NCBI GenBank assembly: GCA_963969495.1
Contig: OZ018328.1
Coordinates: 7,973,331 to 8,037,330, forward strand
Reading direction: 5' to 3'
Length of the DNA stretch: 64,000 nucleotides
Origin: Ceratothoa steindachneri
Taxonomy: Eukaryota; Arthropoda; Malacostraca; Isopoda; Cymothoidae
Shown: piece after piece, positions 17,077 through 59,319 of the stretch
How the letters are laid out: every line of letters starts with the position of its first letter
How positions within the stretch are numbered: position 1 is the stretch's first letter
Program-made: the position numbers and the translations under genes
The notes under the pieces: generated by a model
Told to the model about the DNA's origin: nothing
What the model saw: only the letters and a program-made list of their open reading frames with translations
The model's database searches: none

Positions 17077-17157
17077 CTGTAGCAGTAATGATATGAATTG
17101 TCCTTTCCACAAGCTGAGACACTGGGAAAGGAGCCAAGTCATCATCATCGTCGTTAA
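17077..17157 (-). CDS. Hsf: HSF candidate exon 8, donor abutting a Tc1 transposon
   Basis: Only 236 bp after exon 7, the acceptor AGGGAAGCAG opens 81 bp in exactly the phase needed (two bases, 26 codons, one base), ending at ACAG|GTGATA. The translation is (V)NDDDDDLAPFPVSQLVERT followed by IHIITAT. It is strongly acidic then hydrophobic, compatible with an activation segment, but I recognise no domain. The TA at donor positions +5/+6 (17071-17072) is the target duplication of the Tc1-like element starting at 17070. A second acceptor seven bases upstream (CTTTCTAG) would shift the frame. The exon is inferred from splice signals and phase only. Confidence 0.5.
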
Positions 17158-17393
17158 CTGCTTCCCTAGAAAGTGGGGTATTAAAGCCACTAAACTACCC
17201 AACCACTTCCATTCTTTATACCCATACCCAATCAACCATAAAGCCAACTATATTGTTTTCCATGTCCATAATGACCATCCTCTACCTATGATCCTGCTTC
17301 TCCCTCATAAAATTTGATAAGGATTTAAGGAAAAGCCTGGCAATCAAAAGTGATTAACAATAGAAAGGTCTCAGTTCTCAATTGGTTACTTAC

Positions 17394-17545
17394 CGGGGAC
17401 AATGTTGTATTCATCAGTGCCATTAATTATGTGAATTTGGTGTTCGGGATCTCCAAAATTAAGTGGATCAACAGAGTCGAAGACTTCTGTCACACTCGGA
17501 TAATTTGAGGAATAAAAGTCATCTGCATTTGATTGCCCCGGGACC
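17394..17545 (-). CDS. Hsf: HSF coding exon 7: acidic/Asn-rich region
   Basis: The acceptor TTCATTTTTTAG and donor CCG|GTAAGT bound 152 bp that is open only in the phase required by exon 6. The translation starts (K)VPGQSNADDFYSSNYPSV and contains VDPLNFGDPEHQIHIING and DEYNIVP. It has no family motif I recognise, but it is rich in Asp, Asn and aromatic residues, as expected for sequence leading into an HSF activation region. It lies 13.3 kb from exon 6 across an intron holding a full-length nested LINE. The reading ends one base into a codon, so at least one more exon follows. Confidence 0.75.
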
Positions 17546-18104
17546 CTAAAAAATGAACCAAACATTTTGAGTTATGTTAATTTATTATAAAGAATCCTCC
17601 AAAACCAGTATTAATAGCATACACTCAAAATTCCCTCCAGAACCGGTTTCTAAATGGGAATAGAAAGCAGTGAATTTTAAAGTTCATGATCAACTAACAG
17701 AAACACCACAAATACTCAAATGGTTATGCAAAAAATTCAGCATCTACCAGTCCTACAAAGTGGGATCGATACTAAAAAAAAATACAACACTAAATTTCTA
17801 TTTCTCTCTAAAGAGAGACAGTCAAATGGACTGGTCTCCATCTTTGGTAGACAGTGATTTATTTAGTACTTCAATATAAAATGGAAACCAACAAGGGTAT
17901 CTTTCTCAGAAAGCTTACAAAGGAAGCAGGGGCAGGACGAAACACATGCAGGTCTTGGGGGGGTTGGGAATTATGCCATGCACATTCTGGGATTTGCCTC
18001 CTGATGGGGTATGCTTCCTATGCTTCATCACTGACAAACTTTTAATATGGTCAAAACAAAGTAATGTAGGAATTTCATGTTAATTTTTCTTATATCCACT
18101 TGCG
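17546..18104. other. Left end of HSF intron 6, unassigned
   Basis: AT-rich intronic sequence next to the exon 7 acceptor (TTCATTTTTTAG). Beyond the splice signal I see no gene, repeat boundary or conserved motif. Confidence 0.4.
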
Positions 18105-18482
18105 TCAGGTTCAGGAAAGAGACTCGATCCACCACACTGGCCTTTGCCTAGCAACAGGAGCCTTTCGCACTTCCCCCATTGAGAGCCTACTTGTCAATGC
18201 TGGGGAGATGCCACTCCCCCTGCGCCGTGCACAGTGCATTTCTCGCCTGTACGCGCGAGCCCGGCGCCTCACTCAGTCGTCAACAGCTCTCACTGCATCT
18301 GCAGCTGATCTCGACGGTGCCTATGCCGCTGAGAGACGCCAGTCATACCCTAAGCCCTTTGGGTTTAGGGCCAGGTATAACTCTCGAGCCGGTGGTGCTC
18401 CTGGTTCTGCCCAGGACACTACCCTGGAGGGTATCACCTTTAACCATTTGTTGCCACGCCTCTTCGTGTCTAAAACTTTTAT
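18105..18482 (+). mobile_element. I-group-like LINE fragment in plus orientation (thumb/pre-RNase H)
   Basis: The plus-strand frame starting near 18115 reads DSIHHTGLCLATGAFRTSPIE, ALTASAADLDGAYAAERRQS and YPKPFGFRAR. It closely matches the same segment of copies B and H but in the opposite orientation. It is truncated at both ends and extends into lower-similarity sequence around 18480. It is one of only two family fragments opposing the HSF transcript. Confidence 0.85.
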
Positions 18483-18924
18483 GCAAGAATATTTTAGACA
18501 AAGTTTATCATCATCATCATTGCACCACCTGACCATTTACAATGGCAGGGGTTTCCCAGCCAGATCATGAAATTCATATTAAAATCAGTGTAACAACAAG
18601 CGGCAAGCCCTGTGGGAAAAAGGGAACAGTACTTGTTGGGCAGGAAGTGTGGGGGGAGGCGGGATAATGTAAGTATTTTGCCACCGATTGGCGAATTCAA
18701 AGAAAAAACACCCATATCATGGTAAGGGAGTGTAGAATAAAACAACTTCCCTGATGGAAGAGTGGAGTCGTGTGGCTGTGAAGGAAAGGAAGAGACAGGG
18801 ATGCTTTGATTAGCTGAGCCAGCCTAATATTAGGCTACATTCAAGTAAAACAAACAAACCAAAATCAAAGGGAAAACAAATGTAAGGAAGAGGAATCTGG
18901 CCTGCCACCACCATGTGTCTTTTA
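18483..18924. other. Unassigned intronic sequence between LINE fragments
   Basis: Part of HSF intron 6. It holds short purine-rich runs but no reading frame, inverted repeat or family similarity that I could identify. Confidence 0.35.
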
Positions 18925-19140
18925 TTCTTTTTAAAGCACTTAACTTGGGACTGCCTCCAAGGGCACAAGGCATTGCAATCACTTTGCACCCGAATGATAG
19001 GCTACATTAAAGATGCAGCATACGAAAAAAACACTAACACCCAAAAACAAAAGGAGGAAGAGGAAGAAGCAGACTCCGGCGTCGGGCAAGGCATGCCTCT
19101 CCCAGGCGCAGTACCATGTGATGAACACCAAAGAGTCAAA
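18925..19140 (-). mobile_element. I-group-like LINE, 3' UTR-only fragment
   Basis: The order of short blocks matches the 3' UTR of copies D and H: an acttgggactgcct-like start, ataggctacatta, ccaaaaacaaaaggagg, the cggcgtcgggcaaggc region and ctcccaggcgcag. The fragment carries no coding sequence. It appears to be a severely 5'-truncated copy lying immediately beside the 3' end of copy D. Confidence 0.5.
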
Positions 19141-21477
19141 CAAAATGATTTTTTTCAAAATTTAGGAACCCATCTGGCGACTGCCTACTTGGGCATAAGT
19201 CTCAGCACTCACGACAGCCTAGTACTAGGCTACAATAAAATAACTATGCAAAAAAAATAATAAAACAAGGAAAAGAGTAACAAGCAGGAAGCACGCTCAG
19301 GTGTGGTGGGGAGGCATGTAACTTACATAAAAAAAAAACAGCCAAAAAACCCTCCAGTTAAATAAATAAATGGAGGAGCCCAGACTCCTCCAAAGAGTCA
19401 AAGTCCACAAGTTATTGTGCATGAACCCGTCCCGAGTACAAGGGACAAGCGGTATCGACCCGGCTCATTCCGGTATCGGGACAGGTAACGTGCGCGAAGA
19501 TCATCCAGACTGGGACATTCAACGAGAATGTGCCGAACAGTCTGTGGGACAACGCAGTCGTCACAATAAGGTGCAGGCGAGCGCTCCATCAAATGGCTGT
19601 GCGTCCCGCGAGTGTGTCCAATTCGGAGAAGACAAAAAGCGACCTAAAGATGTCGCGGCATTGCGGGGTAGGTCCATGGGAACAGTCGCGGCGCAATGGC
19701 ACGCAACTTTAGGTTCCCCTCGACCGTCTCCCATTTTTTTGACAAGCAACCCGAAGAGCTGCCCGTATTCCTGCCATATAATCAGTGTGAGGAAGAGCGA
19801 AACACTGGTCTGGTCGCCCAGTCCTCGCGGACTGTTTGGCGCTAACATCGGGGCGTTCATTCCCCGCAATTCCTACATGTCCAGGAACCCAGCAAAAGAT
19901 AATCTAGACATCAGCCCGGCTCGCCAAAACCGTGACGTCATGGATATCACGAACAAGGGGATGCGGAGATTCCAATGGACGGGAGCACTCAGGGAGATTT
20001 GTGAGTCGCTATAAATCACAATCCCTTCTCCGGAGCGGACACGTCGCGTAATCTCCCGTACCGAGCGGAGTATGCAAACAGCTCGGCCGTGAAGAGAGAC
20101 GCAGCGCCTGGCAGAGGCCCGCTGACCTCTTCTTGGGAATTGGAGTCATCCGTATACACTGGTACTGTTCCAGCGTGACACGAAGTGTGCTCCAAAAAGG
20201 CCGAACGTAATACTCCCGGCACTGCGGAAGCTTTGAGAGCAGAGGCGTGGCTACAAATAGTCAAAGGTGGTACCCTCCAGGGTGGCATCCTGGGCAGAAC
20301 CAGGAGCGCCACCGGCCCGAGAGTTATACCTAGCTCTCGAAGGAGTTTCCTGGCCCTAAACCCAATGGGCTTAGGGTATAACGGGCGTCTCTCGGCAGCA
20401 TAGGCACCGTCGAGATCAGCTGCGAATGCAGCGAGAGCTGTTGGCGACTGAGGAAGGCGCCGGGCTCGCGCGTACAGGCGAATAATGCACTGTGTACGGA
20501 GCAGAGCAGGTGGCATCTCCGTGGCATCAACAAGTAGGCTGTCAATGGGAAAAGTGCGGAAGGCACCGATCGCAGGGCGAAGGCCGGTGTGGTGGATCGA
20601 GTCCACCTTCCGTAATACACGCTCGGCTGCAGATGCATAAAACTCGCATCCGTAGTCGAGCTTCGGGCGAACAAAGGATCGATAAAAAAGCAAGGCAGTA
20701 ACTCTATCAGCGCCTCAGGCGCTGAACGTCACGGAACGGAGAATATCGATGGAGGGGGTTCAAGAGACCCTAAGGCTGCGAATATGAGCCTCCCAGGTGA
20801 GGCGTCGGTTAAATACAAGACCAAGGAAACGGTGCGAGTCCACCACTGCCAGGCACACCCCATTTAGAAACAAGAGTGGGTCAGGGTGGAGCCGTGGAGG
20901 GCGGCAGAAGTGCACTACCTTAGTCTTGGCCTCGGAAAACCGAAGTCTGTGCACTTCGGCGTAACAAGAGACGCGGTTCAATGCCTGTTGGAGTCGACGC
21001 TCCAGAGTTGGCATCTGGGCCGCGCCAAAAGAGATCGAAAGGTCGACCACGTAAAGCGTAGCGAGAACATCTTCCGGGAGCACGAAGGTGATGCCGTTGA
21101 TGCTCAAGGCAAAGAGTGCGACACTAAAGACACTTTCCTGCGGAACACCCTCCTCCTGCTACATTGGGCCGGAGAGGGCTCCTCCCACCCGTACGCGGAA
21201 TCGACGATCTCGCAAAAATTCAGATATAAACATTGGGAGGCGTCCCCTCGCCCACATCGTGTGGAGAGTCTAAATGATACCGTATCGCCATGCGGTATCA
21301 TAGACCTTCTCCAGATCGAAAAACAGCGTGGCGTAGTGCTGTCTACGAAGGAAGGCCTCGCAGACGGAATTTTCCAGTCCCAGCAGAGCATCCGACGTGG
21401 AGTGGAACTTGCGGAAACCGCACTGTTCAGAAGACAGATGGCCTCCGCTCTCTAGAAAAAAGGCTAATCTAACATTT

Positions 21478-23358
21478 GGGTAATTCCATTTCAATTCAAC
21501 CAAGATTTGGCCATTTATTTTGCCACCGACTCAGATTTTCTTGCAAATTACTGAACTTGTAGACCTCAATGAGACAAATTCAATGGTATGTGTTTCACTT
21601 ATGTAGGTCAAATGGTTTCTGAGATATGACCTCTCAAAGTTGGGTAAAAAGGGTCATCTTTCTAAAAAGTGAAAAAGTTAAAGGTGAAATATCCCGGAGA
21701 CTATTACACCTGCAGAGCTCATTCTGATACCATTTTAAAGCTAATAAGATTCCCTATAACATTTATTAATGCATATCTTTCCTTACAAGGTCAAACAAAA
21801 AGGTTGACCTTTAATTTGACCTTTGGTCTTGAAAAGGTCACTTGATGTAGAAATTGATTTTTTTGTAACTTTCCCTAAAAATGTGTACATATGTATAGCA
21901 AGAACCATTCCAGGTAACCTGGTCACCTAGCCATTTAGTTATAAAAGTCACATAGTCAATTAGTAATTTAATGAACTACTACTAAGTAATTTTTCTTGCC
22001 CCTGTAAGGGAAAAGGTCTAAGTAGGAAGTGGCATTCTAATGATGAACAAAGAAAGTTAGAATTATAATTTATGGATTGATAAGATTCAAGATCTTGTTT
22101 AATAATCTTCTTTCTTAAATAATAAATTAGCAAACTGAAAGCTTAGAATATAATTATGTATAAATGTATACATATTTTCTTTATTAGGAACACAGAAAAT
22201 CCATTGCGTCAAGGCTGGTAGTGAGGAAGTCTTGGATGCTAGTGCATATTCAACTTCAACTATTACAAGATTGGAAAGGGCCGCTATTCTTCAAAGCAGC
22301 ACAATTCCATTGGCATCTATAAAAGGGTTCTGTTTAGCTATCTATGATGAACACCGGTATCTCGCATGTGTCCTGGAGGTCAAGCACGAGAGCAATGAAG
22401 TTTGGTTGAGCCTCCTTCACCCACACAGCCCTGCACACTCGTTTGTGTATCCTGCACCCCCTGATCAACTTCTTTTTTATGCTAGTGATGTGTTAATGAT
22501 TGTTAGCCCAACAACCATTACGGGTCGAACCTATACATTGACAAAATTGGAAATGAAGAAAGCTACCACTATGACAAATGCCCGCAAATAGAGTAATATT
22601 GAAACATATATATACACAGTATACTGGTATATATTTTTAGTGTATTCAAATGATGATTTAAATCTTCAGGACTAATTTCAGAATTATAAAGTCTTATTGC
22701 ATATTAGTTCATATACATAGTATATTGCTTATCATCCAATTTCAATGTGTCATCCTAAATACTATTTTAATATAATATGCATATAGAGAAGTATTTTATT
22801 AAAGCATACATTAGATATTTATAAAAAAACAAGGGTACTGGTATAAGTACTGTAGATGGTGATTACAATAGTGTATTTAACAGTACACATCAAACACCAA
22901 AATTGTCACTTTTTCGGCTAAGTTGTGCTCACATAAAAATCTGTAGCTCCTAAAATAAACATCTCTCAAAGAAAATTCTTTATGAACACTTTGCTATACA
23001 TATTTACAAATTTTGGGGGAAAGTCACAAATTAAAGGTAAACTTTTTAGTTTGACTTTGTAAGGAAATATATGCATTAATAAAAGTTGTAGGGAATTTTA
23101 TTAGCTTTAAAATGGTATCAGAATGAGCTATGTAGGTGCAATAGTCTCTGGGATATTTGACCTTTAACTTTTTCACTTTTTGCAAAAATGACCTTTTTGA
23201 CCCAACGTTGAGGGGTCATATCTCAGAAACCATTTGACCTACAGAGGTGAGACACATACCATTGAATTTGTCTCATTAAGGTCTATAAGTACAGTAATTT
23301 GAAAAAAAAATCTGAGTCGGTGGCAAAACTGACCGGTGGAATTGACATGGAATGACCC
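21478..23358. mobile_element. DNA transposon with about 400-bp terminal inverted repeats, unknown superfamily
   Basis: The element interrupts LINE copy D precisely: the uninterrupted family sequence reads ctaacatttaccaatttctcc. The insert is bounded by a direct repeat ATTT (21474-21477 and 23359-23362), a 4-bp target duplication. The ends are GGGTAATTCCATTTCAATTC and, reverse-complemented from the right, GGGTCATTCCATGTCAATTC. Inverted similarity runs about 430 bp on the left and 375 bp on the right; the left arm has an extra block of about 55 bp. The middle holds one exon-like reading frame (see separate entry). No DDE transposase is visible, so it is non-autonomous. I could not place the GGGTCATTCC end plus 4-bp duplication in a named superfamily. 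Confidence 0.85.
22191..22591 (+). CDS. Cargo exon of the long-TIR transposon: possible Tudor/SH3-like C-terminal domain
   Basis: A strong acceptor (ttttctttattag, ending at 22190) opens a frame that reads TQKIHCVKAGSEEVLDASAY and continues to a TAG at 22591. There is no good ATG, so it looks like the last exon of a spliced gene whose other exons are not in this copy. Later motifs are FCLAIYDEHRYLACVLEV, LSLLHPHSPAHSFVYPAP and ITGRTYTLTKLEM. From memory, uncharacterised animal proteins end in a similar module (a short beta-barrel with HPHGPARxFxWP and TGRxY), but I cannot name the family. It might be the tail of the element's own transposase or a captured host exon. There are no stops in 130 codons despite the AT-rich surroundings. 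Confidence 0.5.
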
Positions 23359-23828
23359 ATTTACCAATTTCTCCATCAACTTGCACATGCAGGAGGTTAG
23401 AGAGGTTGGGCGAATACCGGCCGGGAAAGAGCGATCTCTCCCCGGTTTGCGAAAAGCGAGCACAGCAACGACATGCCAGGAATCTGGTAGGATACCCTCT
23501 ACCTAGATTCTATTAAACAAATCTAACAGAAAGGCTATGCCTCGCTCACCCAGGTATCGAAGGACGGCGTACGGGACATCGTCCGGACCAGGGGCGGTGT
23601 CTGCGCACGAAGCGAGAGCGGAGCGCAACTCACTCAGAGTAAACCTGTCGTTGAAGGGTTCTCCGCCTCTGGAGGCAAAGTCCAGTCGGCGGCCTTCCGC
23701 GACATCACGGCACGCATTGAATGCTGGCGGAGCGCAGCATCCCGCCTAGATAATGCGGAGAAAGCGGTCGTGAAGGATTCCACCACGGACGCGGGGTCCG
23801 AGATTGGTGTCCCATTCTCCTGAAAACA

Positions 23829-24115
23829 GGGTTTTTTTTTTTATTTAATAGTTTTTACGCACAGTCCTTATTTAGGCTCAGTGTGCTGAAAGAAAGAAAA
23901 AAGAGGCTAAGCTGGGGGAGGGCGGGGCGCTGAGTCCCGTCAGCACGGAGGTAAGGAAGGCAAATCGCCGTGACCCTTACGAGGTGCAGGGTGAAACAGA
24001 ATTGGTACAGAAGACGAAGTAGGGGTTAGCGAAAGGAGAAAAAGAATGCCAAGGTGAGGCCGGACGGGGCGCTGAGTCACGTCAGCCATGAGAGTAAACC
24101 GTCGTGCCCCTTACG
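23829..24115 (-). mobile_element. SINE-like retroelement built from two LINE 5'-end units
   Basis: The insert sits in LINE copy D, where copy A reads continuously from ctcctggagaac to gggaggggggtcc. On the minus strand it starts with the family hairpin (plus CCCCTTACGGGG at 24104-24115) and a unit like the LINE's first 75 bp. A second such unit follows (23905-23990, with ctgagtcccgtcagcacgg), then about 60 bp of unique sequence and an A-tail (T-run at 23831-23842). A short imperfect duplication (aacaggg / gacggg) flanks it. It thus has LINE-5' and poly-A ends but no coding region. Confidence 0.68.
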
Positions 24116-27100
24116 GGGGACGGGAGGGGGGGTCCTGCGAGATCTTGCCCCGAATCTATTTGACTTGCTTCTACACCTCTGCTAGAGGGGTCTTCTCGTT
24201 AAGTGAGCCCACCAAGAAGAGTGGCGGGCGTGCTTCGAAATATACCGGAACATAGCCCTAGCCCGACGAAATTCAGCGACAGTGAAATAGTTCGGGCGGC
24301 GCACAAAGATAGATCGAGGCAGAAAAAAAAATGAAGCGGTTCTCGGGCACTGATGCGTAAACTTATTCACATTTAGGACACCTATTTCCAGCTCGTCAAT
24401 CGGGTCGGCAAGGATTTGACCCCGAGGATTAATCGAGTAGTCTCCCCAGAGGGGGTGTCTACCGTTCAGATCTCCGAGTAAGAGAAAGGGCCTCGGCAAC
24501 CGTGCCACAGAGCGGTTTAAGTCCCCCGCGTCGAAGTTGGCTGACGGTGGATATACGCTGAAATAACAGTGAAGCTGCACAGCTACAGCCTAAAAGGAGG
24601 AATCTAAAGGGAAGAGAACAACGGAGATATCATGCCGAGTGTAAATCGCGCATTCTCCTGCCCGGCCACTACCTCGTAGTGGTGGGGTCACAAACCCTTT
24701 TACCCCCAGGAGAGTGGGAAAGGAGCACGCGCCCAGTATGGTGACCTGCAAAAAGATACCTAACGGGGAATGTGTGACGAGACGAGCTTCCGCAGCTCCT
24801 CCCAATTAGTCCGGAGTCCACGGCAATTCCATTGAAGGAATATACCCTCCAAGCCTAGCTCGGAGGAGATGTAAGGGCCCTCTTCGAAGTGAAGACCCTC
24901 ACGGGAATGACCGAACTTCGGGCGCTGTTGGCCGAATAATGCGGTCAAGGCGATCTCGCCTTCTAGGAATTATAAGGGGAGGTTGTGCTCAACATGCGAG
25001 TCTTTTCTTCCCTCCACCTCGAAACCTTCGGAGTCGTGGGTCCCTCTTTTGGAAGATCCACCATCTACGAGCCACTCAACCTAACACTGGGTGTGGGCGA
25101 ATTGAGCCGAAGCTCCTTTAGTGCTGTCCTCCTTTCGGGGGGCAGCTTTAGGAACCCCGGAAGATTGCCTCACAACCAACTTTAGGGGTACTGACTCATG
25201 TGAGTCTAAATACTAGGTTGAGGCGCGCGCCGTTTCGCCTTACGAGAAACAGTCACGCTTTGGGAAGGAGCGGGAACCCTTTATGTCGCTAGCTAAACCA
25301 CAGGATCGCCTGGGGTGGGTAGAACTCGCAGAAGGGTTCCGAATGGGCGCGGAAACGATCGTGCTCGTAGTCTTAGAAAGGCCAGGAGCAGAAGGAGTCT
25401 TTCTTAACATTGAGGCATAAGGCGTCCCAGGCAGCGCCAAGACCAATCCTTAGTCTCGCGAAATGAGAGACGATCCTGGGCCTGAAGGGCCAGGATTTCC
25501 TTTTCAAGCAGATACGCACCACATTGCTTCAAAGAAGCGGGGTGCGGCTCTGCGCAATTGACACACATGGCCACACAAGATTTGGACTTATTGTGTGCGG
25601 CCTTGGAGCAAATTACAAAGATTTGGGGTAACCCCGCTTTACAAGTCGACAGGAGCGATTCGTATGACCGAAGGGGTGGCAATAGTAGAACCTCCGCGGC
25701 AGTGGCACGAATGCCTTCATGCGCTAGCGATAGCAACCGGCACGCACCGACTCAGGAACCTTGTCATAGTCGAACGTGATGAGGAATGTTTTCTCATCAC
25801 ACGTTTGACCTTGACAGCCCCGTGGTCAGCCAGCTCTAGGGTGATGTTATCTATGGAGTAGTCCACGCGTTCCCTCGCATAAACTACTCCTTTCACAAAG
25901 TTGATGGTAGAGTGCGGCGTCACACTCACCGGCGTGCCATCAAGTATCCGAAGGACACTAATCATGGTCACATCGGAGGGATTCGACGCATTCGCCAAAA
26001 GGCTCCCGTCCGAGAAATGAGTCACCTTCGGCTGTCTCCGATCACACTAACTAGAGCTCTCTTCGGATGGATCATGTTGTCCTTAGCCAACATGCTGCCA
26101 TCAGTGGAGCGAATAACAAGGAAGCGTTTGAAGCCAGCGGCCTAGAAAACGTCAGGCAGTCCTTAAATGAAGGGACCCGATGCAATTGAGGCTACCCTCT
26201 GCACACGTTTGGTCTTGGTCAGAGACTCCCCGCCTGGGGTGCACCGGGGCCGGACGTGCCTATCTTCGCTTGGTCACTTGCCGAAATGGCAGCAGACCAG
26301 TCCGCCCCCGAGGGTCCAGCGGATGGACAACGAGCCATTAGTCTTTTTATTGTTGTTTCTCTGGCTTTTCTTTTCAGGAAAGGAGGGTGGGGAAATGGAC
26401 CCACTTCTCCCCGCGGCTAGCAGGAGCTCCTAGGCCAGATGGACCGGCCTCAGGAAGATCCTTCTCTGAAATTGAGAAGGTCTTGGCTGTCACTGGGGCA
26501 CCAGCCAGGGAAGGAGATCCCTTCTCTACGTGTAAGGCCTCGAGGGCCCGAGACGTCTGAGGAGGAACTTGCACAGGGAGATCCAGCCCATTGAAGGTCT
26601 TACAATATGAGGCTGGGTCACTCAAGGGGAAGGGAAGGGGGCTCTATGTGGCTCTCCCCCTCCCACAAGATATCACAGATCCCATTTGAGGGTCTTTTTT
26701 CTAATGCCGACGAACTGGCATCCATTGAGAAAAGGAGGGGGGCAGGTACACTGATCCTCTGCAAACTAGTTGCGCATACCTGCAGGAAATTAAGGGGCAC
26801 GGGCCAACAGGCCCTGCCCTCCTTTGCTCCCCTAATGGGGTTAGCCTTATTGAGCCACCCCCACTGAGAGTGGTCAATTATGGGCTGCCTGCATGCTTTC
26901 TTGGCAGTCCCTTGTGAAAGAAAAGGAGGGACTGCTGCTGGAAAAAGTGAAGCGCCGAAGGGCACCTCCAGAGAATGCGAGTCCCCTACATCTGTAGGGT
27001 CCCCTGAGAAAGCACAGGGGGGGAGGGATCTCCCTTTTTTTTAGTGGAGCTGCCCGAAGGCGGCTTTATGGGCATGGTGACCTTATAATAATCATGGGAC

Positions 27101-27529
27101 GCAAACGCTCATCACCCCATGCAGTCGCCGCTCCGCCATGGGTGAACACCGGGCCAGCAAAACCAGCTGCCGCCATTTGAGGCCACTCCTCCTGCCTAGT
27201 GACCTGGCATAAAATTGATAGAAATGGAAAGGAGGGAGAAAGGGTATGTGAGGAAGGTGTGGGTGGGGATGAAGCGCAGGTTGTTAAAAACGCACAACCC
27301 AGAGCTCAGGAGTGAGGGAACCTTGTCTCCTCCCCTCTCAGCCCAATCCGGGATAGTTGGGCGAGAGGAAGCTGGTCGGTGGAGAGTCATAGGAGAGGTT
27401 TTAGGGAAAGTAAGGAAGTAGGGTAAAAACAAAATGGAGAGGCTAAGCTGGGGTTGGACAAGATGCTGAATGCCTTAGCAAGGCAAAACACCGCGCCTTA
27501 TACGGGGTCGTTTGATGCCAGTGGGGTAA

Positions 27530-45879: not shown

Positions 45880-46110
45880 CCCACCCTGAAAGTTACTCTT
45901 GTACATTCCCCTTACAAGTTTATTTCCATCCATTCTTCTTACATACCCATACCATCTCACAACACTGAGGAACCACTTTCTTGACAAAAACACTTTTTTC
46001 TCATTCATCTACCCTTTGCATAACTTGCATTCTAAAATTGTTCAATTACACTGCTCTTACAATCTTTCCTCCTCTTTTCATACTCTCATACAGCGCTCCT
46101 CCACCCAAGG
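45880..46110 (-). mobile_element. LINE C-terminal tail fragment of another lineage
   Basis: The minus strand, with one frameshift, reads KVV followed by a WYGYVRRMDGNKLVRGMYKS-type stretch. This is the common C-terminal block (RWFGHVERMDxxRLVKRVY) found after the RT of many invertebrate LINEs. It could belong to the same lineage as the RT fragment at 30190-30560. No frame of length survives. Confidence 0.45.
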
Positions 46111-46949: not shown

Positions 46950-47053
46950 TAGACTTGTTCTAAAATCAACTCTTATTTTCATAGGTTTCGGTACATTTCC
47001 CCATGCTTTTTGACCTGAAAAAGTCAAAAAACACAACAATTTTGACTTAAGAT

Positions 47054-49700: not shown

Positions 49701-50359
49701 TTGTCATGTCTTTGCTACAGAATTAATAATCTGAAAGTGGTGAATGACAATGCTGCATGTGGTATCAAGATAAGGAGCAACTTTACAAATGTCCTAACAA
49801 TGCCAAGCAAAGGAACTATTCTCTTTCAAGCTGTGGAGTTCAACATATGATATTTTGACAGCTTCAAGAAACAAACTCTCAACAACTGACTGTAAATGTC
49901 ATTATGAAATTAATCAGAATGTAATGCTTTCACTTCTTGATTGAGTTTACTTCTGACAAAATGTTAATCTCAAATTTGTGTCATGAATAAGTGAATAAGC
50001 TGCTTTGTATGCCTTGAGTGAGAAAATGAATTTTGTGATATTTCTGAAATCTGTTTGTACCAATCTGCCATTTCTAGTTCCAAGACTATTATAATTGTAT
50101 GCTATAAATATTAAAAACACTGAATTGGTGCCTATTTTGTTGCTCTATGTTGTTTAGATAAAAGGTTGCAGTGAAAACATGATTCATTAAGGGACCACTA
50201 AAACTGGGCCTTGAAGCAGAAAATTTAAAGCTTTATGCAGCAATGCTTCCCAACATCCTAGATCAAAATTGTAACTTTTGGCTTTTTCAGCTCAAAAAAC
50301 ATGGGGAAAATTTACAGAAACCTATGAAAATAAGTGATTTTTGAACAGGCCTAATGCGT

Positions 50360-50780
50360 CTGGTGGAGAAGAAGGTTCCCCTTTTCCACCCTCAGGCAAC
50401 TCCACCTCTTAAGAAGAGGAGCACACCCTCCCTATGCTTCCCCAGGGGACCCTCCAAGTTTCTAGCAGAGAGGAGCTTTCCCTCTCTCATGTCTCCAGGT
50501 AAGAGTTTTCCCCTTAGCCCCTTTGTCAGTCCACCCCCCCTCCCTTCTTTCACAAGGGTCCACCAGGTTCAAGAGGAGAATGAGCAATCACTGGCAAGTA
50601 AGTGGTCACCCACTTTAAATTTGAGCTTGTGGATAGGAGGAATCCGCTTAGAGAGCCAAGAGGAGCAAAGGCCCACTGGGTCACCATAACTTCCAACCCT
50701 CTTTCAGGAAACAGGACACCAGGCCCTCAGACCTGTGAACCATTCAGATGCTGGGGGCCTAGTGAGTCCCCAATTAGGAT
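50360..50780 (+). mobile_element. Probable I-group-like LINE 5' UTR fragment in plus orientation
   Basis: Blocks aactccacctcttaagaag, caggggaccctccaagtttc, gcagagaggagcttt and ttctttcacaagggtcc follow the order seen in the reverse complement of the 5' UTRs of copies B and C (for example aggggaccctccaaatttct in copy C). Similarity is partial and no coding region is attached. It lies directly outside the right target duplication of the hAT-like element. Confidence 0.45.
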
Positions 50781-51048
50781 TAGGATTGTCTCAGGGTGAG
50801 TGGGTGGCAGGGGGATTTTTTTTTTATTATTTTAAGAGCGCATCTGTTGACCTCCTACTAGGGCAAAATGCGGCATAATCACGCTAACACACGCTAAAAA
50901 CAACAACAACAAATAACAAAGCAACAAGAAGCAAGTGCACTCCAGGATTGGGGGTAGGCCCGCCTCCACCCTGGCACAAGAACATGCAACTTACAACAAA
51001 GAGTCAAATAAAGGAGGAAGAGGCCAGCCTCCTCCATAAAGTCGTATA

Positions 51049-52665
51049 CACTAGCGGCCATAATATAAGGGTCAGTAAGAACAAGTGTATTTAAATATTT
51101 ATTATATAAGTTTAACAAAACATCAAGACTATATTATACACATATTTAGATATATCTAATATCTATCTTTCGTGAAAATTTCAAGTGAATGGAATAAATA
51201 TTTCATAAGTTATGAGGAAATAAACAAACTATCTTCCAAATTGCAGTGGCCAGAAGTTAAAGGTCACTTAGAAAAACAATGTAAAATAAAACAAGAACAA
51301 AAAAGGAACCCTTAGTATGATGATGTTTTTAACATCCCTTTACTACCAATGACCTCCCAATATCTGTTCCCACAGGACTGAATTAATTTTTGGCAAAATG
51401 ATGGGGTAATTTTCTTCCATTCATTTTTCAATAATTCCCAGAGTTCATCTTGGTTCTTTGGATTTCTCCTTCGCGCCCCATCTCCAATAATCTTCCAAAT
51501 GCTTTCTATAGGGTTGAGATCGGGTCTTTGAGGTGGCCAGTCCATGAGATCAACCCCTTTATCACTCAAAAAATCTTGAGTCTCTTCGCAGTGTAGCAGG
51601 GAGCATTGTCCTGCACGAAGATAGGAGGTTGAACCGACGAAGATTGGAGATGTGGAAGGGCCTGCTGTTTATGAATCAGCTTTTAGATTTCAGCATTGAC
51701 AGTCCCTTGTAGGCAAATAAGTGGACCAGGACCAGCAGTAGAGATCCCTCCCCAGACCATTACACTGCTAACTCCATATTTCACTGTTTTCTTCACACAT
51801 GCACAAGATAACCTTTCGCCACATCTTCTTGGACATACATCTCACCATCAGAACCAATCACATTAAGCTTAGATTCATTGCTAAAATGATCCTGCGGCCA
51901 TTATTCTTCTGGCCAAATGACATGTTCATGAGCGTAACGAAGATAGGCTCTTTGATTCTTCTTGGAGATCAGAGGTTTCTTTGCCAGTGCCTGAGCAAGC
52001 AACCCAGAACCTTGTAACCTCCAGGAAACATGTTTTGCATGATACGTTGACATTGGAGGTGGAGCTGAACTGGCGGGATATCTCAGGAGCACTCTTAAAC
52101 CTATCCTTCAGTGACATTCTAACCATAATATGATCCTGTGTTGGTGATGTTTTATGAGGTTGATGGGTTTTGGGTTTAGCATCTATTGAACTGATGAATT
52201 AAAAAGAGCTACAATTCGTTGTACAACCCTTCTAGACCTTCCTACAGTAGTTGCTATCACAGAATTTGACTTGCCCTCTTGGTGAAGGCAGACAATCCTT
52301 TTTTTTTCATCACAGGTCACCAGTCATCTCTCACAAGTACCATGTTGACAGTTGAATATTTCAATGTATGATTATAAGAAGTAACTGTTAGCCCATCAAC
52401 AGTCTCCTAAACACAAATACCTCGGTTGGTAGTTCATTTTTTCTAAGTGACCCTTAACTTTTCACTGCTGCAATTTGGAAGATAGTTTGTTTATTTCCTC
52501 ATAACTTACAAAATATATAATCCAATCACTTGAGATTTTCACAAAAGATAGATATTAGATATATCAAAATGTGTAAAATATATAGTTTCAATGTTTTGTT
52601 AAACTTCTATAATAAATATTTAAATACACTTGTTCTTATGAACCCTTATATTATGGCTACTAGTG
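51049..52665 (-). mobile_element. Tc1-like transposon, 1.6 kb, with about 220-bp inverted repeats
   Basis: TA duplications (51047-51048 and 52666-52667) flank inverted ends CACTAGCGGCCATAATATAAG and, from the right, CACTAGTAGCCATAATATAAG. Inverted similarity continues to about 51262 on the left (aaggtcacttagaaaaa) and back to about 52435 on the right. A minus-strand transposase fills the interior. The length is typical of an undeleted Tc1-like element, and the boundaries are unambiguous because the host LINE resumes on each side. Confidence 0.92.
51312..52126 (-). pseudogene. Tc1-like transposase, frameshifted
   Basis: On the minus strand, the N-terminal region around 52126-51926 retains MVRMSLKDRFKSAPEISRQF. 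The catalytic core is spread over frames: WPEE then NESKLNVIGSDGEMY (first acidic residue, usually SDE, here decayed), CRTMLPATL (second, usually DNAPCH, here frame-altered) and WPPQRPDLNPIESIWKIIGD in 51569-51312 (third, intact). The C-terminal ELWELLKNEWKKI is normal for the family. Several stops and frameshifts are present, so no active enzyme is encoded. Confidence 0.82.
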
Positions 52666-52957
52666 TAGTCTACAAGTCTATGTACACAAAGCCATCCTGA
52701 GTTACAAGGGACAAGCGGTAGCAACTCCACTCATCCAGGGAACAGGTAACGTGTGTGGCACTCAGACTGGGACATTCAACAGAATTGTGATGAAGAGTCT
52801 GGGGGACAACAAGAGCAATTGCAATAAGGTACAGGTGAGCGCTCCATCAAATGGTGGTGCATCCTGCAAGTGTGTCCAATTTGGAGACAAGAGAAAGCAA
52901 CATGAAGCTGTTGCAGCATTAGGGGGTAGGTTTCTGGGAACAGCCACGGCACAATGA

Positions 52958-53195
52958 GATAGGCGGGTCCACTAACAAATAGGGTGGGTGATCATCTATT
53001 ATTATCGTACCCTGGTGCTAAGTGATCCCAGGAAGGCATGCAGTCCACCAAGGCATCATGGCTACTGGACCTTACTCTGTCCAGGTGGGAAGAGTCCTCC
53101 TGGTACAAAGTGTGGGTAGAAAAGGTTGAGGGTGTTAAATCAGTTATAAAGCATAACAGTAAATATCTAGAATTATAAAAGTTATAAATGGGAAT
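52958..53195. other. Unassigned sequence between LINE copy K and solo LTR
   Basis: Intron 2 sequence with no recognised feature. The last six bases, gggaat (53190-53195), are the left target duplication of the LTR. Confidence 0.4.
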
Positions 53196-53721
53196 TTGTC
53201 GTGTGCACGTGGATGTTCACTTAGAGTGGAAGCTTTTACACACTGTAAGAAGAATCCTCGAGGCGAGTGCTCCGCCCAGCCCAGCCCTGGAACAGAGGGC
53301 GGTACCTGCACTGCCTACCTGCATTGGCTGACGAGCCTGTGCCCCTTCTTATTTGACAAGACTGCTATTACCACCCCCCTCACCCCCCAGCGCCAAGAAA
53401 TAGCCCTGTGCCCCTTCTTGTTCGGGTGCTCCTTTTGTTGTGTCTACCTTGGTTGGGTTGTTGACATTTGTTCTCTGCGCCCGTCATACTTTATTTTGTT
53501 TTTGGTTGGGAAAATTACAATTGTATAAAATATTTATTTGAATGTGCACTGGTGTTTATCTATTTTTTTTGTAAATATAAGCTGTAAATATAACTGTATT
53601 TTTTTGTAAATTAAAGGACTGTATATCAAATTGTATCAATTCTTCCTCAGGGTTCTCAAGGTCCATAAATCCTAGGTTAAGGTTGGAACGCAGGTTAGTC
53701 TAGATTTTTGGCCCGCTACAA
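53196..53721 (+). mobile_element. Candidate solo LTR with 6-bp flanking duplication
   Basis: The segment starts TTGTCGTGTGCACG and ends TTGGCCCGCTACAA, giving a short inverted TTGT...ACAA terminus. It is flanked by identical gggaat copies (53190-53195 and 53722-53727). At 526 bp, with a GC-richer first half and AT-rich second half, it resembles a solo long terminal repeat of a gypsy- or BEL-type element. There is no internal coding region or primer-binding site beside it. The 110-residue frame inside (53196-53528) has no domain and is not called as a gene. Orientation is a guess. Confidence 0.5.
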
Positions 53722-53732
53722 GGGAATAGCCA

Positions 53733-53880
53733 TAATAATACTATTGATGAATAATAATATACTACTAATAATAATACACAACAATAATAATAGATATAAA
53801 AAATACTAATAATAAATAATATAAAATACTAAATAAATAATATTAATACTATAAATGATTAATAATAATAATAAAAAAAG
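53733..53880. repeat. AT-rich simple sequence (AAT/TAA-like)
   Basis: Imperfect runs of aataat, ataata and taaata fill the gap between the solo LTR and the minisatellite. Confidence 0.85.
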
Positions 53881-54000
53881 GAAAAGTAATGCTGAGAGGG
53901 GGCGAGGGAAAGCATACCAAAACTTGCCCTTCCAGGCCCCATCAGAATTTATGTCAGCCCAGTGACAGGGCCTCCCAATTTGCACTCAGGCCAGGAAGAT

Positions 54001-55017
54001 ATGAAGCTCTTGCAGATACCAAGTGTAAATGTGACGCTCTTGCTGATACCAAGTGTAAATGTGAAGCTCTTGCAGATACCAAGTGTAAATGTGAAGCTCT
54101 TGCAGAAACCAAGTGTAAATGTGAAGCTCTTGCAGAAACCAAGTGTAAATGTGAAGCTCTTGCAGAAACCAAGTGTAAATGTGAAGCTCTTGCAGAAACC
54201 AAGTGTAAATGTGAAGCTCTTGCAGAAACCAAGTGTAAATGTGAAGCTCTTGCAGATACCAAGTATAAATGTGAAGCTCTTGCAGAAACCAAGTGTAAAT
54301 GTGAAGCTCTTGCAGAAACCAAGTGTAAATGTGAAGCTCTTGCAGAAACCAAGTGTAAATGTGAAGCTCTTGCAGAAACCAAGTGTAAATGTGAAGCTCT
54401 TGCAGATACCAAGTGTAAATGTGAAGCTCTTGCAGATACCAAGTGTAAATGTGAAGCTCTTGCAGATACCAAGTGTAAATGTGACGCTCTTGCAGATACC
54501 AAGTGTAAATGTGAAGCTCTTGCAGATACCAAATGTAAATGTGAAGCTCTTGCAGATACCAAGTGTAAATGTGAAGCTCTTGCAGATACCAAGTGTAAAT
54601 GTGAAGCTCTTGTAGATACCAAGTGTAAATGTGAAGCCTTTGCAGATACCAAGTGTAAATGTGAAGCTCTTGCAGATACCAAGTGTAAATGTGAAGCTCT
54701 TGTAGATACCAAACTTAAATGTGAAGCTCTTGCAGATACAAAGTGTAAATGTGAAGCTCTTGCAGATACCAAGTGTAAATGTGAAGCTCTTGCAGATACC
54801 AAGTATAAATGTGAAGCTCTTGCAGATATCAAGTGTAAATGTGAAGCTCTTGCAGATACCAAGTGTAAATGTGAAGCTCTTGCAGATACCAAGTATAAAT
54901 GTGAAGCTCTTGCAGATACCAAGTGTAAATGTGAAGCTCTTGCAGATACCAAGTGTAAATGTGAAGCTCTTGCAGATACCAAGTGTAAATGTGAAACTCT
55001 TGCAGATACCAAGTGTA
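54001..55017. repeat. 30-bp minisatellite, 34 units
   Basis: The unit is gtgaagctcttgcagatacc plus aagtgtaaat. It is present 34 times head to tail with few changes. The main variant has gcagaaacc in place of gcagatacc and occurs in units 4-8 and 10-13; the rest are of the main type. The unit is a multiple of three without stops in three of the six frames. Long reading frames therefore run through the array: CEALADTKCK repeats (plus, 53889-55094), VKLLQIPSVN repeats (plus, another frame) and SARASHLHLV repeats (minus). These are properties of the array, not evidence for protein. It lies in HSF intron 2. Confidence 0.97.
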
Positions 55018-55928
55018 ACATGCTACACAGGGTACCCCGCTGCAGGGAGATTGAGGGGCGGATTAAGGGGGGCATAATCACTCATGGCTGGTAGGTAGAA
55101 GTTTAATGCCCCTAATTTGACCCTAGCAATGGATTGACAGAGCTCTCGCTGCTGCAGCCGATGCTACTGGAACAGACAGTATATGCCATCACCACCACTT
55201 CTTGTGAATACTCAACTAAAACTTCCCGATGGCATGGTAGGCAGGTCAGGATGGCAAATCCGTCTTAATGACAGGCCACTGAAAGGTTGGGGTTACCACA
55301 CCCAGTGAAAGTGGAGAGTTCATCAGTGAAGTGAATGTGATAGAAGGAATCTTAATTGTGGGGTTCCTGGAGTGAGGATAGAAACAAGTCAATAAAAAGG
55401 GGAAGGGGGTGTCTTGTAAATAAAGTGTCAAAAAGATGGTTATGGGAGATATGTATAGAAGTAAGGTACCTAGTTTAAGACTAATTGGAGGCACTGGGGT
55501 AGGAGGGCATGTCACTCTTTATAAAGGTAATTTCTTTGCAGCACTGATATGAGCTGCAGGATCCATTTATTTATGTATCTTCTGCTTTAAGAGGCTGGCT
55601 ATAAATTGGGTTGTATCTGGGGAGAACCCCACCGACTTTTTGAGCCATCCTAATAATAATATCAAATAAATGGCTCTTCAGCAGAGTCCTCATTTGTATC
55701 CCAATCTCTCTCTCTCAAATTAACTCCTTGTTTTATATCCAGTCCAATTTTAGAAGCACTTCACCTTTTGTGTTTAAATAGTTCACAGTGCTTAAATTTA
55801 TAAGAGTGGCAAAATAAAAGGGTGTGTGACATAAGAAAAAAACATTAAATTTAAAAACAGGAATATGACTCCTCTAACTAAGCATTGCTCAATTTATATA
55901 TTACATATAATACATCTTCTATACTTAC
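55018..55928. other. HSF intron 2, right end next to exon 2
   Basis: An 89-residue minus-strand frame (55515-55246) is present but resembles nothing I know. The exon 2 donor T|GTAAGTATAG marks the right edge. Confidence 0.35.
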
Positions 55929-56037
55929 ACATATTCAGTTGCCTGATAAAACTTGCCATATTGTTATGTTTAAAATATTTGGGAATAAGCTCCTGGGTGA
56001 ACCTGTTTTGATTTGTGATGACAAAGCTCTGTCCTTT
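55929..56037 (-). CDS. Hsf: HSF coding exon 2: recognition-helix part of DNA-binding domain
   Basis: The exon follows the acceptor TATATTTTCAG and ends at T|GTAAGT, leaving one base of a Tyr codon (phase 1). The translation contains GQSFVITNQNRFTQELIPKY and then [15 protein letters not shown]. The last stretch is the HSF signature: the recognition helix that enters the major groove at the heat shock element, nearly identical to the canonical [20 protein letters not shown]. It joins exon 1 directly at WTE/KGQSF. A plus-strand reading frame over the same bases (55885-56160) is a shadow. This exon is the strongest single piece of evidence for the gene. Confidence 0.95.
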
Positions 56038-57518
56038 CTGAAAATATATACCAAAGATTGGATGAGTGCCTCTATCTTTAATGCAGGGTTGAAATATGTA
56101 ATATATAAATGTAAAGTTGGTAGGAATCCACAAGTTCATTATTCAACCCTGGAATTATAAGTTAGTAACTATAAAATATAAAAATTTATATCTAAACTTA
56201 AATGTATATTAATTTTCCCTAACATATTTTAAAAATGAAATATTTTAAATTTAAAGGGAAAAAATCAACATGAGGTATGATGCTAGAAAGTTAGAACTTG
56301 GAGGAAGTACACAGCCCAAGTAAACACAAGTGAATACTTGGAGTAAGGATAAGGAAGATGCATATTCATCCTTGAAAAGGAAAGCATCCGGAACTCAACA
56401 ATTGCGCAAATTATTTAACTATCGTCCAAATGTGACTCCTCTCACTCTCAAACAACCAACCAACACCTTGTACGCACCCATTGGCCACACGGTGCCAGGA
56501 CGACCCAAGATCGGGGCAAACTTTAAACCCAAACCTTTACTTTAGTTTCGGAAACATCAACATAAAGGTGCATTTGCTTTCCATTGTGTGTGTCCCCTTT
56601 TCCTAAAGTTTCTTTGTATATATTTATCAATTTTTGACTTGTGCATATTTTCCTTTCTATATTTTTGTGCCCCCTTAAAAGTGTTTTGTGTACAACCTTT
56701 ACCTTTTAAGGGTATTTTTGGAGGGTGATTGTTCATTTATAATCCCTTTCTTAAAGGGTTAAGGTTTTTGTGTATTATTTTTTGCCTCATTTCTATCTTT
56801 TTAAGGTAATTTCATGTGTATTTTTAAGTCCCTTCCTGAAGGGGCTATTGCTTTCTTTAGTTAGTTTGAGATTATTATTCCTAATCTTTTTTTTGTAGGC
56901 AATAAATTCATCTTTATGATTAACCAAACTCTAACTTAAGAAATTTAACTCAAACAGCAGTCAAAAACTATAATCTGAGCCAAGCGTAGAACTGCGCCAA
57001 ATCATCCCCTCAGTCATTCACCGTCAGGAAAATTTGTCACTTTCTTCGGAGCTTAGCCTCGGTTTAATTTTCGCATTATTTTTGGTTTTTCCTCTTTTCT
57101 GTATTTACTGTTAGCAAATTACTTTATTAAATTTTTTCCCATTTTTTTTTCTTCTTATGTATGTATTAACTTATTTTGCTTATTTCTATTGTAAACTACT
57201 TAATTTACTATAGTTTAATTTTTGTCCTCACGATCCAAAAGTGGGTGGTAATAGCTCGCTTACAATCCAAATTCTATTACTGTTCAATGATGATGGTGGG
57301 TTAATGAGAGAACATGATGAAAATATAAAGAGTAAACAGTGATGAAATTTAAATCACTGGCTAGCCACTCCACTGAATATGCTGCTGAGATCAGCAGATA
57401 AGGCTGCCTTAATTTACTTCCCTCTCACAAGGCAAAAAATAAAGCCTTGATTTATAACCCTTTGCACCCAGTCTATAAACAAATGACCTCTTTGTGTCAT
57501 GCAGCCAGGATTGAAATA
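56038..57518. other. HSF intron 1, unassigned
   Basis: A 71-residue plus-strand frame (56330-56545) reads SKDKEDAYSSLKRKASGTQQ and then PTNTLYAPIGHTVPGRPKIG. It might be a retroelement remnant but I cannot place it. The remainder is T-rich on the plus strand. No repeat boundaries were found. Confidence 0.35.
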
Positions 57519-57841
57519 CAGTAAACCCCCGATATAACAAACTATATGGGGCAGAGAGTCGTTCGTTGAAGCTGAAAATTGGTTAAACCCGATGGTTGTT
57601 AAAAGTGATGGAAATAACAAACCAAGTTTGTTATATCCGATGGTTCGTTCGTTTTATGGAGTAGTAAGTAGCACTTGTGAAGAGAGGAAGGAGGAGGAGG
57701 AAGAGGGACAGAGCACCAGAATAACCTCTCCTGTGTGATGTTCACAGCCGATTGAGCTGTGAGCCATTGAGTCGCAGCATGGAGTTCAGCCAGGAAATTT
57801 GGTTTGTTATATCCAAAATTCGTTATATTGAGGGTTTACTG
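57519..57841. mobile_element. pogo/Tigger-type MITE, 323 bp
   Basis: TA duplications (57517-57518 and 57842-57843) flank inverted ends CAGTAAACCCCCGATATAAC and, from the right, CAGTAAACCCTCAATATAAC. A second inverted block (gttatatccgatggttcgtt-like) lies inside. There is no coding frame. The CAGTAAACCC end and TA target fit pogo/Tigger-related miniature elements. It lies in HSF intron 1. Confidence 0.9.
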
Positions 57842-59202
57842 TATTTACAAGTGGAATTTTCTTAAGTTCTGTAATTTTGAGATAAGCCAATTTTGGTAGT
57901 TTGGCAGGTCCAGAATCATTGAATATAATAATTGACAACTATTTATAAGTACAATTGATTTGAACAGTTTTGATTACAAAAAAAATGCCCACCTGATGAT
58001 CTCCATCTCAGTTGGGGATTCTATCTTATTTTAATTGGGTAATGAATTACTGAATCTTAGTATGCACCTCACTTTTATTGTGGCAGGGTGACTTCTATCA
58101 AGTTTTTTGAGAGAAGTAAAAATGCTCTTTCGGGGAATGAAATGATTCATTTAGTAGACCATTCAATGCAGTGAATGAACAATTGATACAATTTGGGTAG
58201 TTCAACCTCAGAGAAAAATGAGTGCATAGATTTTTGCTGGGAGAAAAGTGCTAATTTTGACCACCATAATTACACTTCAATGAAACTAATGTTGTTTACA
58301 GCTCTTGGGGAGCAAATGGAATATCTTCTCCCTCAGACTGCTTAGAAGATTTAGGGATAAAGCTGTAATCCTACAGCTTGTGCTGCAAACCTCATTAACA
58401 TTACCACAATTACGTGGAGCCACGCTTGCTGTGAGGCTGTCCCAAAGGACCAAGAATTAGTGGAAACTTTGTTGGTGAACCGGAGCTTAACTAATGTGGC
58501 TTTTATTGATGAATATTAGTGGAAGTTACACAAACCCCAAAATATCATGAATATTGTATTAAAAATGCCACTATACTCTAAGTACATTTATTTTTAAAAA
58601 ATAAGAAAAAAATGGATTAATAAGAATATTTCAGCCATAATTCAGCAGCTTTGTGAAATATGGCAGTCAATAAACAACAACTACAGGCAAAATTGTTAAA
58701 CTTCAGGCTGTAGCTTTTAGTGCAGGAGACTAATTCTTCTGTCATGTCTGCAATAATACCAAAATAGAACATAGAGAGAAATGCCTCACCACATACTGTG
58801 TTGCATGCAATGTTGGACTCTGCCTCAGTGATTTACGAGATGCGCAAGAATCTTTTACTATTACAGCTTCTGCTAAAGTATTAAATAATGGCATTCTTTA
58901 AATGGATATTTACTATATCATATGAGTAAAATGACTATGAAAGGTTTTTCTTGTAAAATTTGATAGTAAAACTATTATCTAAGAAAGCTATTGGAATGCT
59001 TCTTAAGTAGGTGAACTATTATTTTAGCCTATAATTGAACTATTGCAGAGAAATAAAGGACTCAAATAGCTAAGTACATTTTGCATGAAATAAAAGTGGA
59101 TGAGACACTTGGCACCCAAAATAAGAGGTAAATATGGATCTGTGAAAGATGGCTTAAGTGTCTTTATATTTGAAACTTTTAAAAAAATATAAATATACAA
59201 AC
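57842..59202. other. HSF intron 1, right part, unassigned
   Basis: Contains the second copy of a short dispersed block at about 58405-58460 (taccacaattacgtggagcc, compare 31740-31800). Otherwise AT-rich and featureless up to the exon 1 donor GAG|GTTTGT. Confidence 0.35.
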
Positions 59203-59319
59203 CTCAGTCCACCTAATTAAGTCATCTGTACTGGGATCATTAACAATTTTCCAAAGTTTAGTGAGAAAAGCAGTATATGATCCAACTTTGGTAGAATCAA
59301 TTTCATTGGCTGGCAACAT
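59203..59319 (-). CDS. Hsf: HSF coding exon 1: start and first part of DNA-binding domain
   Basis: Thirty-nine codons run from an ATG to a GAG|GTTTGT donor in phase 0. The translation starts MLPANEIDSTKV and contains AFLTKLWKIV and DDLIRWTE, matching helix 1 and the following turn of the HSF winged-helix domain (family pattern AFLxKLWxLVxDPxTDxLIxW). An in-frame TAA lies two codons before the ATG, which supports this start. However, the preceding AAAAG could also be a weak acceptor that would put the 5' UTR in another exon. The short N-terminal tail before the domain is normal for the family. The 5' flank (59.32-60.5 kb) is mostly unassigned DNA followed by a decayed LINE 3' end, and I cannot point to a promoter. 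Confidence 0.9.

Follow-up and report, generated by a model that had tools for sequence, protein, structure and literature searches.

A 68.4-kb heat shock factor gene with 12 coding exons, and its decayed chromosome 7 retrocopy, in the isopod Ceratothoa steindachneri

As summarized in Table 1, the window, a 64,000-nucleotide stretch of the Ceratothoa steindachneri genome, carries on its minus strand the first seven coding exons of a heat shock factor (HSF) gene that continues past the window's low end. The species is a cymothoid isopod, a tongue-biter of fish, and its COI is 87% identical to those of Ichthyoxenos and Cymothoa. The full model comprised 12 coding exons (2028 nt, 675 aa) with GT-AG borders at 11 of 11 introns, spanned 68,436 bp from ATG to stop, and kept its reading frame intact over all 675 codons. 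The sequence-only reading had described a gene of more than 42 kb with eight in-phase exons and seven introns, and these eight are indeed open in one frame with GT-AG introns; the gene was real and long, and exons 1-7 were recovered just as described, but exon 8 and the junction 17394/17157 were not, being omitted from the retrocopy described below, and the span had been underestimated, with five exons and intron 7 missed. The model is thus corrected across the window edge.

Table 1. Features of the HSF locus (window positions unless prefixed C12, chromosome 12; repeat percentages are lower bounds).
Feature	Position	Strand	Remarks
HSF coding exon 1	59203..59319	-	ATG at 59319; homology to decapod HSFs; outside retrocopy coverage
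HSF coding exon 2 (DNA-binding domain, recognition helix region)	55929..56037	-	Frame, Pfam, decapod homology; outside retrocopy coverage
30-bp tandem array in intron 2	54002..55018	.	33.9 copies, 96% matches
Intron 2	44340..55928	-	11,589 bp, 27% detected repeat
HSF coding exon 3 (DNA-binding domain end)	44215..44339	-	Frame, decapod homology; 3' part 44215-44283 in retrocopy
HSF coding exon 4 (HR-A/B)	43587..43787	-	Frame, decapod homology, retrocopy
HSF coding exon 5	41751..41897	-	Frame, decapod homology, retrocopy
Intron 5	31143..41750	-	10,608 bp, 74% detected repeat
LINE copy, intron 5 (RNase H end and RT-position piece)	39051..41087	-	Sense to gene
LINE copy, intron 5 (ORF1, endonuclease, RT-position, RNase H piece matches)	33233..37206	-	Sense
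HSF coding exon 6 (IHEVT motif)	30874..31142	-	Frame, HSF alignment, retrocopy
Intron 6	17546..30873	-	13,328 bp, 54% detected repeat
LINE copy, intron 6	23326..25883	-	Sense
LINE copy, intron 6	19386..21415	-	Sense
LINE fragment	18070..18577	+	Sole antisense one found within gene
HSF coding exon 7	17394..17545	-	Frame; in retrocopy, which then runs into exons outside window
Intron 7, in-window part	1..17393	-	Whole intron 23,666 bp, 75% detected repeat; ends at C12:7966892-7967057 exon
Exon 8 of the sequence-only reading	17077..17157	-	Absent from retrocopied transcript; at most alternative terminal or cassette exon
LINE copy, intron 7 (5' part)	9405..10906	-	Sense
LINE copy, intron 7	4556..6881	-	Sense
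LINE copy (ORF1, endonuclease, RT-position pieces)	190..3268	-	RNase H piece just past window
Corrected-model exon 8	C12:7966892-7967057	-	Outside window; ends intron 7
Corrected-model exons after 8	C12:7966451-7966720, 7966101-7966203, 7965844-7965919, 7964214-7964506 (stop)	-	Outside window

The five further coding exons lay 6-9 kb past the low end of the window, in the same orientation and with matching phases. A decapod C-terminus profile matched segments -9113..-8790 (E 1.1e-8) and -7256..-7101 (E 9.4e-8), negative positions lying below the window start, and the next best match had an E value of 2.6. Inside the window, the tails of decapod HSFs gave weak tblastn matches (e.g. 62899-63060, E 0.01), which were taken as chance, given the better C-terminal matches outside it. 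At the other end, an in-frame TAA starts 6 nt before the ATG, and an acceptor-like TTTTCTTACAG, ending about 41 nt upstream of the ATG, suggests an additional 5' non-coding exon. Exon order, splice sites and the retrocopy are read directly from the sequence; the predicted junctions 1/2 and 2/3 draw on homology and splice sites only. Scans of the 64-kb window for tRNAs and Rfam families gave no matches.

The HSF identity proposed by the sequence-only reading was upheld by a Pfam scan of the locus protein, in which the HSF-type DNA-binding domain PF00447 matched over its full profile (1-100) at E 5.7e-34. Seventeen of the 18 solved-structure matches were named heat shock factors and one a putative transcription factor; the top ones were HSF1 entries, which we take to be human, and the nearest relatives of the protein were decapod HSFs. 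The predicted protein has the standard HSF layout of DNA-binding domain, HR-A/B trimerisation zippers, regulatory region, HR-C and C-terminal tail. HR-A/B was located next to the DNA-binding domain by alignment to its decapod counterparts, HR-C was assigned to the exon C12:7966101-7966203 ahead of the C-terminal region (decapod-profile E 9.4e-8), and PF06546 matched residues 515-558 at E 8e-5, its 22.9 bits falling just under the cut-off of 23.

Comparison with decapod and stomatopod HSFs (Penaeus, Macrobrachium, Eriocheir, Cherax, Oratosquilla) revealed the same domain order through the C-terminus and common motifs such as VAVPEK/LAIPDK, SGTEVSxYNPS and PPKxxRLxIKK, whereas the regulatory region diverged. 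Against ten malacostracan HSFs, 60-66 of 102 residues were identical in the DNA-binding domain, 40-46 of 72-73 in HR-A/B and 11-16 of 34 in HR-C. The isopod protein reads YGFRKV at the site of YGFHKV in the decapods shown, and it is without the optional QQRRLASDG-type segment that some decapod isoforms carry. Vertebrate HSF1 (Latimeria, Protopterus) was as close as the decapods in the DNA-binding domain (64/102 for both), in contrast to HR-C (9-10 of 34) and to the C-terminus, where similarity was slight. These alignments took in 14, 20 and 15 of 120 listed HSFs in three comparisons.

On chromosome 7, a decayed, intron-less HSF copy (C7:18775423-18777308) acts as a fossil cDNA, and a retrocopy of this kind offers a means of verifying exon joins when RNA is not at hand. 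The chromosome 7 copy covers 9 of the corrected model's 11 junctions, four of them among the seven proposed by the sequence-only reading, and joins exon 7 directly to the exons beyond the window, omitting the exon at 17077-17157. Its matched stretch contains 5 TGA, 1 TAG and 5 TAA stops, and 12 extra nucleotides stand right before the last exon, so that the acceptor of this exon may have differed in the transcript that was copied. The retrocopy implies that a spliced transcript of the HSF gene once existed in the germline.

Searches of the genome with the PF00447 profile and with the protein found no second intact HSF. The profile search gave one match among 15 scored candidates, and as this covered exon 2 only, an HSF with a differently split domain could escape it; the protein search gave eight matches at this locus, three at the retrocopy and two (E 2.15 and 7.86) that were taken as noise rather than as a second HSF. 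With regard to an intact HSF elsewhere and a relic here, which the sequence-only reading had raised against itself, the relic proved to be the chromosome 7 copy. There is thus next to no likelihood that the present locus is a decayed relic while another HSF does the work: only its repeat-filled introns would speak for this, against 675 codons open across 12 exons and a genome search without another HSF domain. The chromosome 12 locus is almost certainly an ordinary long-intron HSF1-type orthologue, and the only intact HSF gene found in this species.

The 17077-17157 exon bears on where the gene ends. Its frame stays open for 27 codons and on to a stop at about 17027, needing no splice donor, with an AATAAA some 100 nt beyond, all of which would suit a gene of eight exons and 42 kb ending at or just past 17077. 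Such an ending is very improbable, since HR-C and C-terminal exons follow downstream in the same orientation and with matching phases and the retrocopy skips the exon, which together rule it out as a constitutive one; by eye, moreover, a stronger-looking acceptor 8 nt upstream shifts its frame. Use of both ends, with the exon as an alternative terminus and a truncated HSF of about 416 aa, lacking HR-C and the C-terminal tail, made alongside the 675-aa form, appears doubtful rather than far-fetched. The donor after exon 7 is good, the in-frame run reaches a stop and a poly(A) signal, and by analogy such a product may make sense, as trimerisation is freed in other HSFs when HR-C is lost. In human HSF1, an exon between the regulatory region and HR-C is described in PMC7226471 as alternatively spliced. 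Against these points, the isopod acceptor is purine-rich, a 43-codon open run would, on a rough estimate, arise by luck one time in eight, the exon is missing from the sole fossil transcript, and one protein search with the C-terminal part including this exon, in which 7993 candidates were scored, found no relative at E <= 10. It is quite improbable, further, that this is a genuine alternative end just ahead of the 23.7-kb LINE-filled intron 7, whose LINE load could then set the ratio of constitutively active to heat-controlled HSF; if so, transcripts failing to cross intron 7 would encode a truncated HSF that lacks the HR-C repressor zipper.

In the 12-exon gene, introns 2, 5, 6 and 7 each exceeded 10 kb, the first three being those already noted within the window, and consisted of repeats to at least 27, 74, 54 and 75%, respectively, lower bounds from a self-comparison that took in a 274-kb region plus a few small loci. 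LINEs and other repeats were detected, in agreement with the proposed expansion by repeats, and much of the load belonged to one LINE family; the description of the introns as largely mobile elements held for introns 5 and 6, but in intron 2 only the 27% was detected as repeat. The family was recognised by its endonuclease (PF14529, E 1.1e-17) and RNase H (PF00075, E 1.4e-11), and its pieces kept a consistent order across several copies; the ORF1 and RT labels were assigned by position and by eye, and a Pfam scan of the ORF1-like frame gave no match. A first look at the genome returned 6522 candidate copies, of which 40 were scored, and the stretch 39048-40508 was 98-99% identical to 39 other long copies scored.

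The sequence-only reading had considered this length striking in a gene needing fast transcription, a view not supported by comparison with other genes. The mean transcript length of C. steindachneri is given as 36,992 bp in PMC12361884, and a polymerase gene of the same genome has one intron of about 26 kb, although gaps between matched stretches of another polymerase gene (C3) reached only about 2.9 kb. The same repeats as in the HSF introns made up 78% of a control intron piece, a single control chosen for being long, and repeat density was 55% in the HSF gene, 54% in the downstream flank and 35% in the upstream flank, which includes 5,000 N. The HSF gene length is thus not outstanding in a large, repeat-filled genome where other genes also have long introns. 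Our literature search on HSF intron length in crustacean genomes found nothing related.

According to PMC7226471, activation of HSF1 takes place mainly at the protein level; heat-induced trimerisation and binding to nGAAn elements are properties of the family that are likewise described there. By analogy with the family, the isopod protein would be made in advance and kept inactive, and upon heat would trimerise via HR-A/B and then bind heat-shock elements. LINEs and other repeats inserted into the four long introns and lengthened them, as happened to other introns in this 3.9-Gb genome, and the long gene is probably tolerated because the fast step lies at the protein level. The HSP70 family provides a small within-genome contrast: long introns occur in a regulator that is activated at the protein level elsewhere, whereas the HSP70 domain is intron-free in five copies and intron-split in three other members. 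As putative targets, the five intron-free copies would fit selection for speed acting on targets.

Splicing of the eight minus-strand exons that the sequence-only reading had assigned to an HSF gene gave a single frame of 400 codons without a stop, with GT-AG introns throughout. The product carried a full DNA-binding domain (Pfam, E 5.7e-34) and also matched solved HSF domains, and its closest relatives in the protein collection were decapod HSFs, the Penaeus protein sharing 54% identity over 61%. The open frame, splice sites, domain and decapod relatives thus established that the gene is real and that exons 1 to 7 were correctly placed. The open end of the proposed exon 8 is the first sign that this model was incomplete.

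The window together with 150 kb of flanking DNA was scanned with a profile of the decapod HSF C-terminus. Two strong same-strand matches lay past the low end of the window: a segment with HR-C, the repressor repeat near the C-terminus (E 9.4e-8), and the terminal segment (E 1.1e-8); the next match reached only E 2.6. A search on splice sites and reading frame, with a crude score, put at the top an exon lying between these segments with matching phases. Two weak profile matches just before the segments, LHPELLKTVNPS (E about 0.006) and LAIPDKA (E 21, alone noise), were accepted because a decayed HSF copy on C7, the retrocopy, aligns to both. The full model, summarized in the table, comprises 12 coding exons, the last five beyond the low end of the window (2028 nt, 675 aa), has GT-AG in all 11 introns and spans 68,436 bp.

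Introns of the HSF gene and other located features (unprefixed coordinates are window positions p, equal to C12 position 7973330 + p)
Feature	Coordinates	Strand	Length (bp)	Detected repeat
Intron 1	59203/56037	-	3165	
Intron 2	55929/44339	-	11589	27%
Intron 3	44215/43787	-	427	
Intron 4	43587/41897	-	1689	
Intron 5	41751/31142	-	10608	74%
Intron 6	30874/17545	-	13328	54%
Intron 7		-	23666	75%
Intron 8		-	171	
Intron 9		-	247	
Intron 10		-	181	
Intron 11		-	1337	
Stop codon end	C12:7964214	-		
Proposed exon 8	17077-17157	-		
30-bp tandem array (intron 2)	54002-55018			
Further reverse-transcriptase frame (RVT_1 match 62175-62711)	61566-62711	+		
HSF retrocopy	C7:18775423-18777308			
COI-like copy	C11:170834712-170836051			

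The retrocopy emerged from a protein search of the species' own genome as a second HSF-like match, intron-less and with many stops. DNA alignment showed that it contains the 3' part of exon 3, exons 4 to 7, the five out-of-window exons and some 3' UTR, in ten pieces of 78-94% identity, neighbours being separated by no more than 18 bases. Over 1685 aligned coding bases it was 84.9% identical to the gene, with the minimum at third codon positions and 12 indel events, and no clear poly(A) tail was seen by eye. Judged from this alignment, we read it as a 5'-truncated processed pseudogene of HSF. In the full model, nine out of 11 junctions have its support. As for the seven junctions originally proposed, those of introns 3 to 6 were borne out and those of introns 1 and 2 lie beyond its reach, while the last, 17394/17157, is contradicted. 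The proposed exon 8 may be an alternative end, or nothing. Inspection of its splice sites by eye showed a purine-rich acceptor and, 8 nt upstream but in a different frame, an AG that looks better. Its frame continues to a stop near 17027 with AATAAA about 100 nt beyond, and a genome search with this stretch returned one match, the stretch itself. Directly before the last exon, the retrocopy has 12 extra bases similar to the end of the present intron 11, and thus the acceptor of that exon may once have been different.

A genome search with the DNA-binding family returned one match, exon 2 of the HSF locus (15 candidates scored), and the protein search returned 13, of which eight fell in this locus, three in the retrocopy and two were noise; both work exon by exon and score the best candidates only, so that a highly divergent second gene could escape. 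The searched genome comprised 3,927.64 Mb in 529 contigs, and the published assembly 3,927.82 Mb in 534 scaffolds (chromosome 12, 172.89 Mb; chromosome 7, 212.63 Mb; PMC12361884). COI was found on contig C529 (87% identity to Ichthyoxenos and Cymothoa). The COI-like copy on C11 appears to be mitochondrial COI transferred to the nuclear genome; it is split between two frames and adjoins a COII-like frame recognised by eye.

Since the protein retains the regions of metazoan HSF, the best inference from its sequence is that the standard cycle applies: unstressed HSF would be an inactive monomer repressed through HR-C, and heat would drive trimerisation via the HR-A/B zippers, the trimer binding heat-shock elements.

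The length of the gene had been presented as striking, a view not sustained here. In the annotation of this genome, transcripts of coding and non-coding genes average 36,991.74 bp in length (PMC12361884), which we assumed to mean genomic span, and the HSF gene is just under twice this mean. Among RNA-polymerase second-subunit genes, one on C10 has adjacent stretches of one domain separated by 26.4 kb, one on C2 has a 16.2-kb gap with residues missing between, and gaps in one on C3 reach only about 2.9 kb. Within a single intron of an HSP70-family gene on C4, a 10-kb stretch was 78% covered by the repeats also found in the HSF introns; it was the one control, chosen for length. Longer introns alongside larger genome size have already been described for the isopod Bathynomus jamesi (PMC9107163). 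The HSF gene thus does not look like an outlier needing explanation. In the HSP70 search (35 matches), five matches cross the domain unbroken (open frames of 623-708 aa), three further members of the family are broken up over roughly 37 kb (C4), 36 kb (C24) and 7 kb (C16), and the remainder are one partial copy and C39 fragments, several with stops.

By comparison with 274 kb of local sequence and small loci, the share detected as repeat was 55% for the gene, 35% for the flank upstream (5,000 N included) and 54% for the one downstream; the seven introns other than 2, 5, 6 and 7 showed none. A large component was a LINE with endonuclease (PF14529) and RNase H (PF00075), whose RT pieces were named by position only and whose ORF1-like frame had no Pfam match. 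A 1461-bp piece gave 6522 first-look candidates in the genome, and the 39 long copies besides the query among the best 40, which were scored, were 98-99% identical to it; a young subfamily therefore exists, although this top-ranked sample does not show every copy to be young.

Intronic LINEs are expected to be biased against the sense orientation. LINE coding matches within the gene (introns 2, 5, 6 and 7) totalled 19,806 bp sense and 507 bp antisense, a bias noticed post hoc and reflecting few independent insertions. In the 10-kb control stretch, from an intron of a different gene, 22 of 22 matches of the family were sense, and orientation in the flanks was mixed (downstream 15,005 bp plus, 4,924 bp minus; upstream 3,280 bp minus, 2,313 bp plus). 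The further reverse-transcriptase frame upstream of the gene (RVT_1 E 1e-12) apparently belongs to a second kind of LINE. A repeat unit of 30 bp, divisible by three, keeps several frames open in the tandem array (about 34 copies), and its 411-aa frame was rejected as a gene sign on this ground. For the mantis shrimp Oratosquilla, the HSF prediction includes a segment resembling reverse transcriptase at residues about 498-549 (RVT_1 E 0.0024; 18.1 bits against a cut-off of 29.6, so under it). The segment sits between regions equivalent to the last two exons of the Ceratothoa gene and may be a LINE fragment turned exon, or else an error in the gene model.
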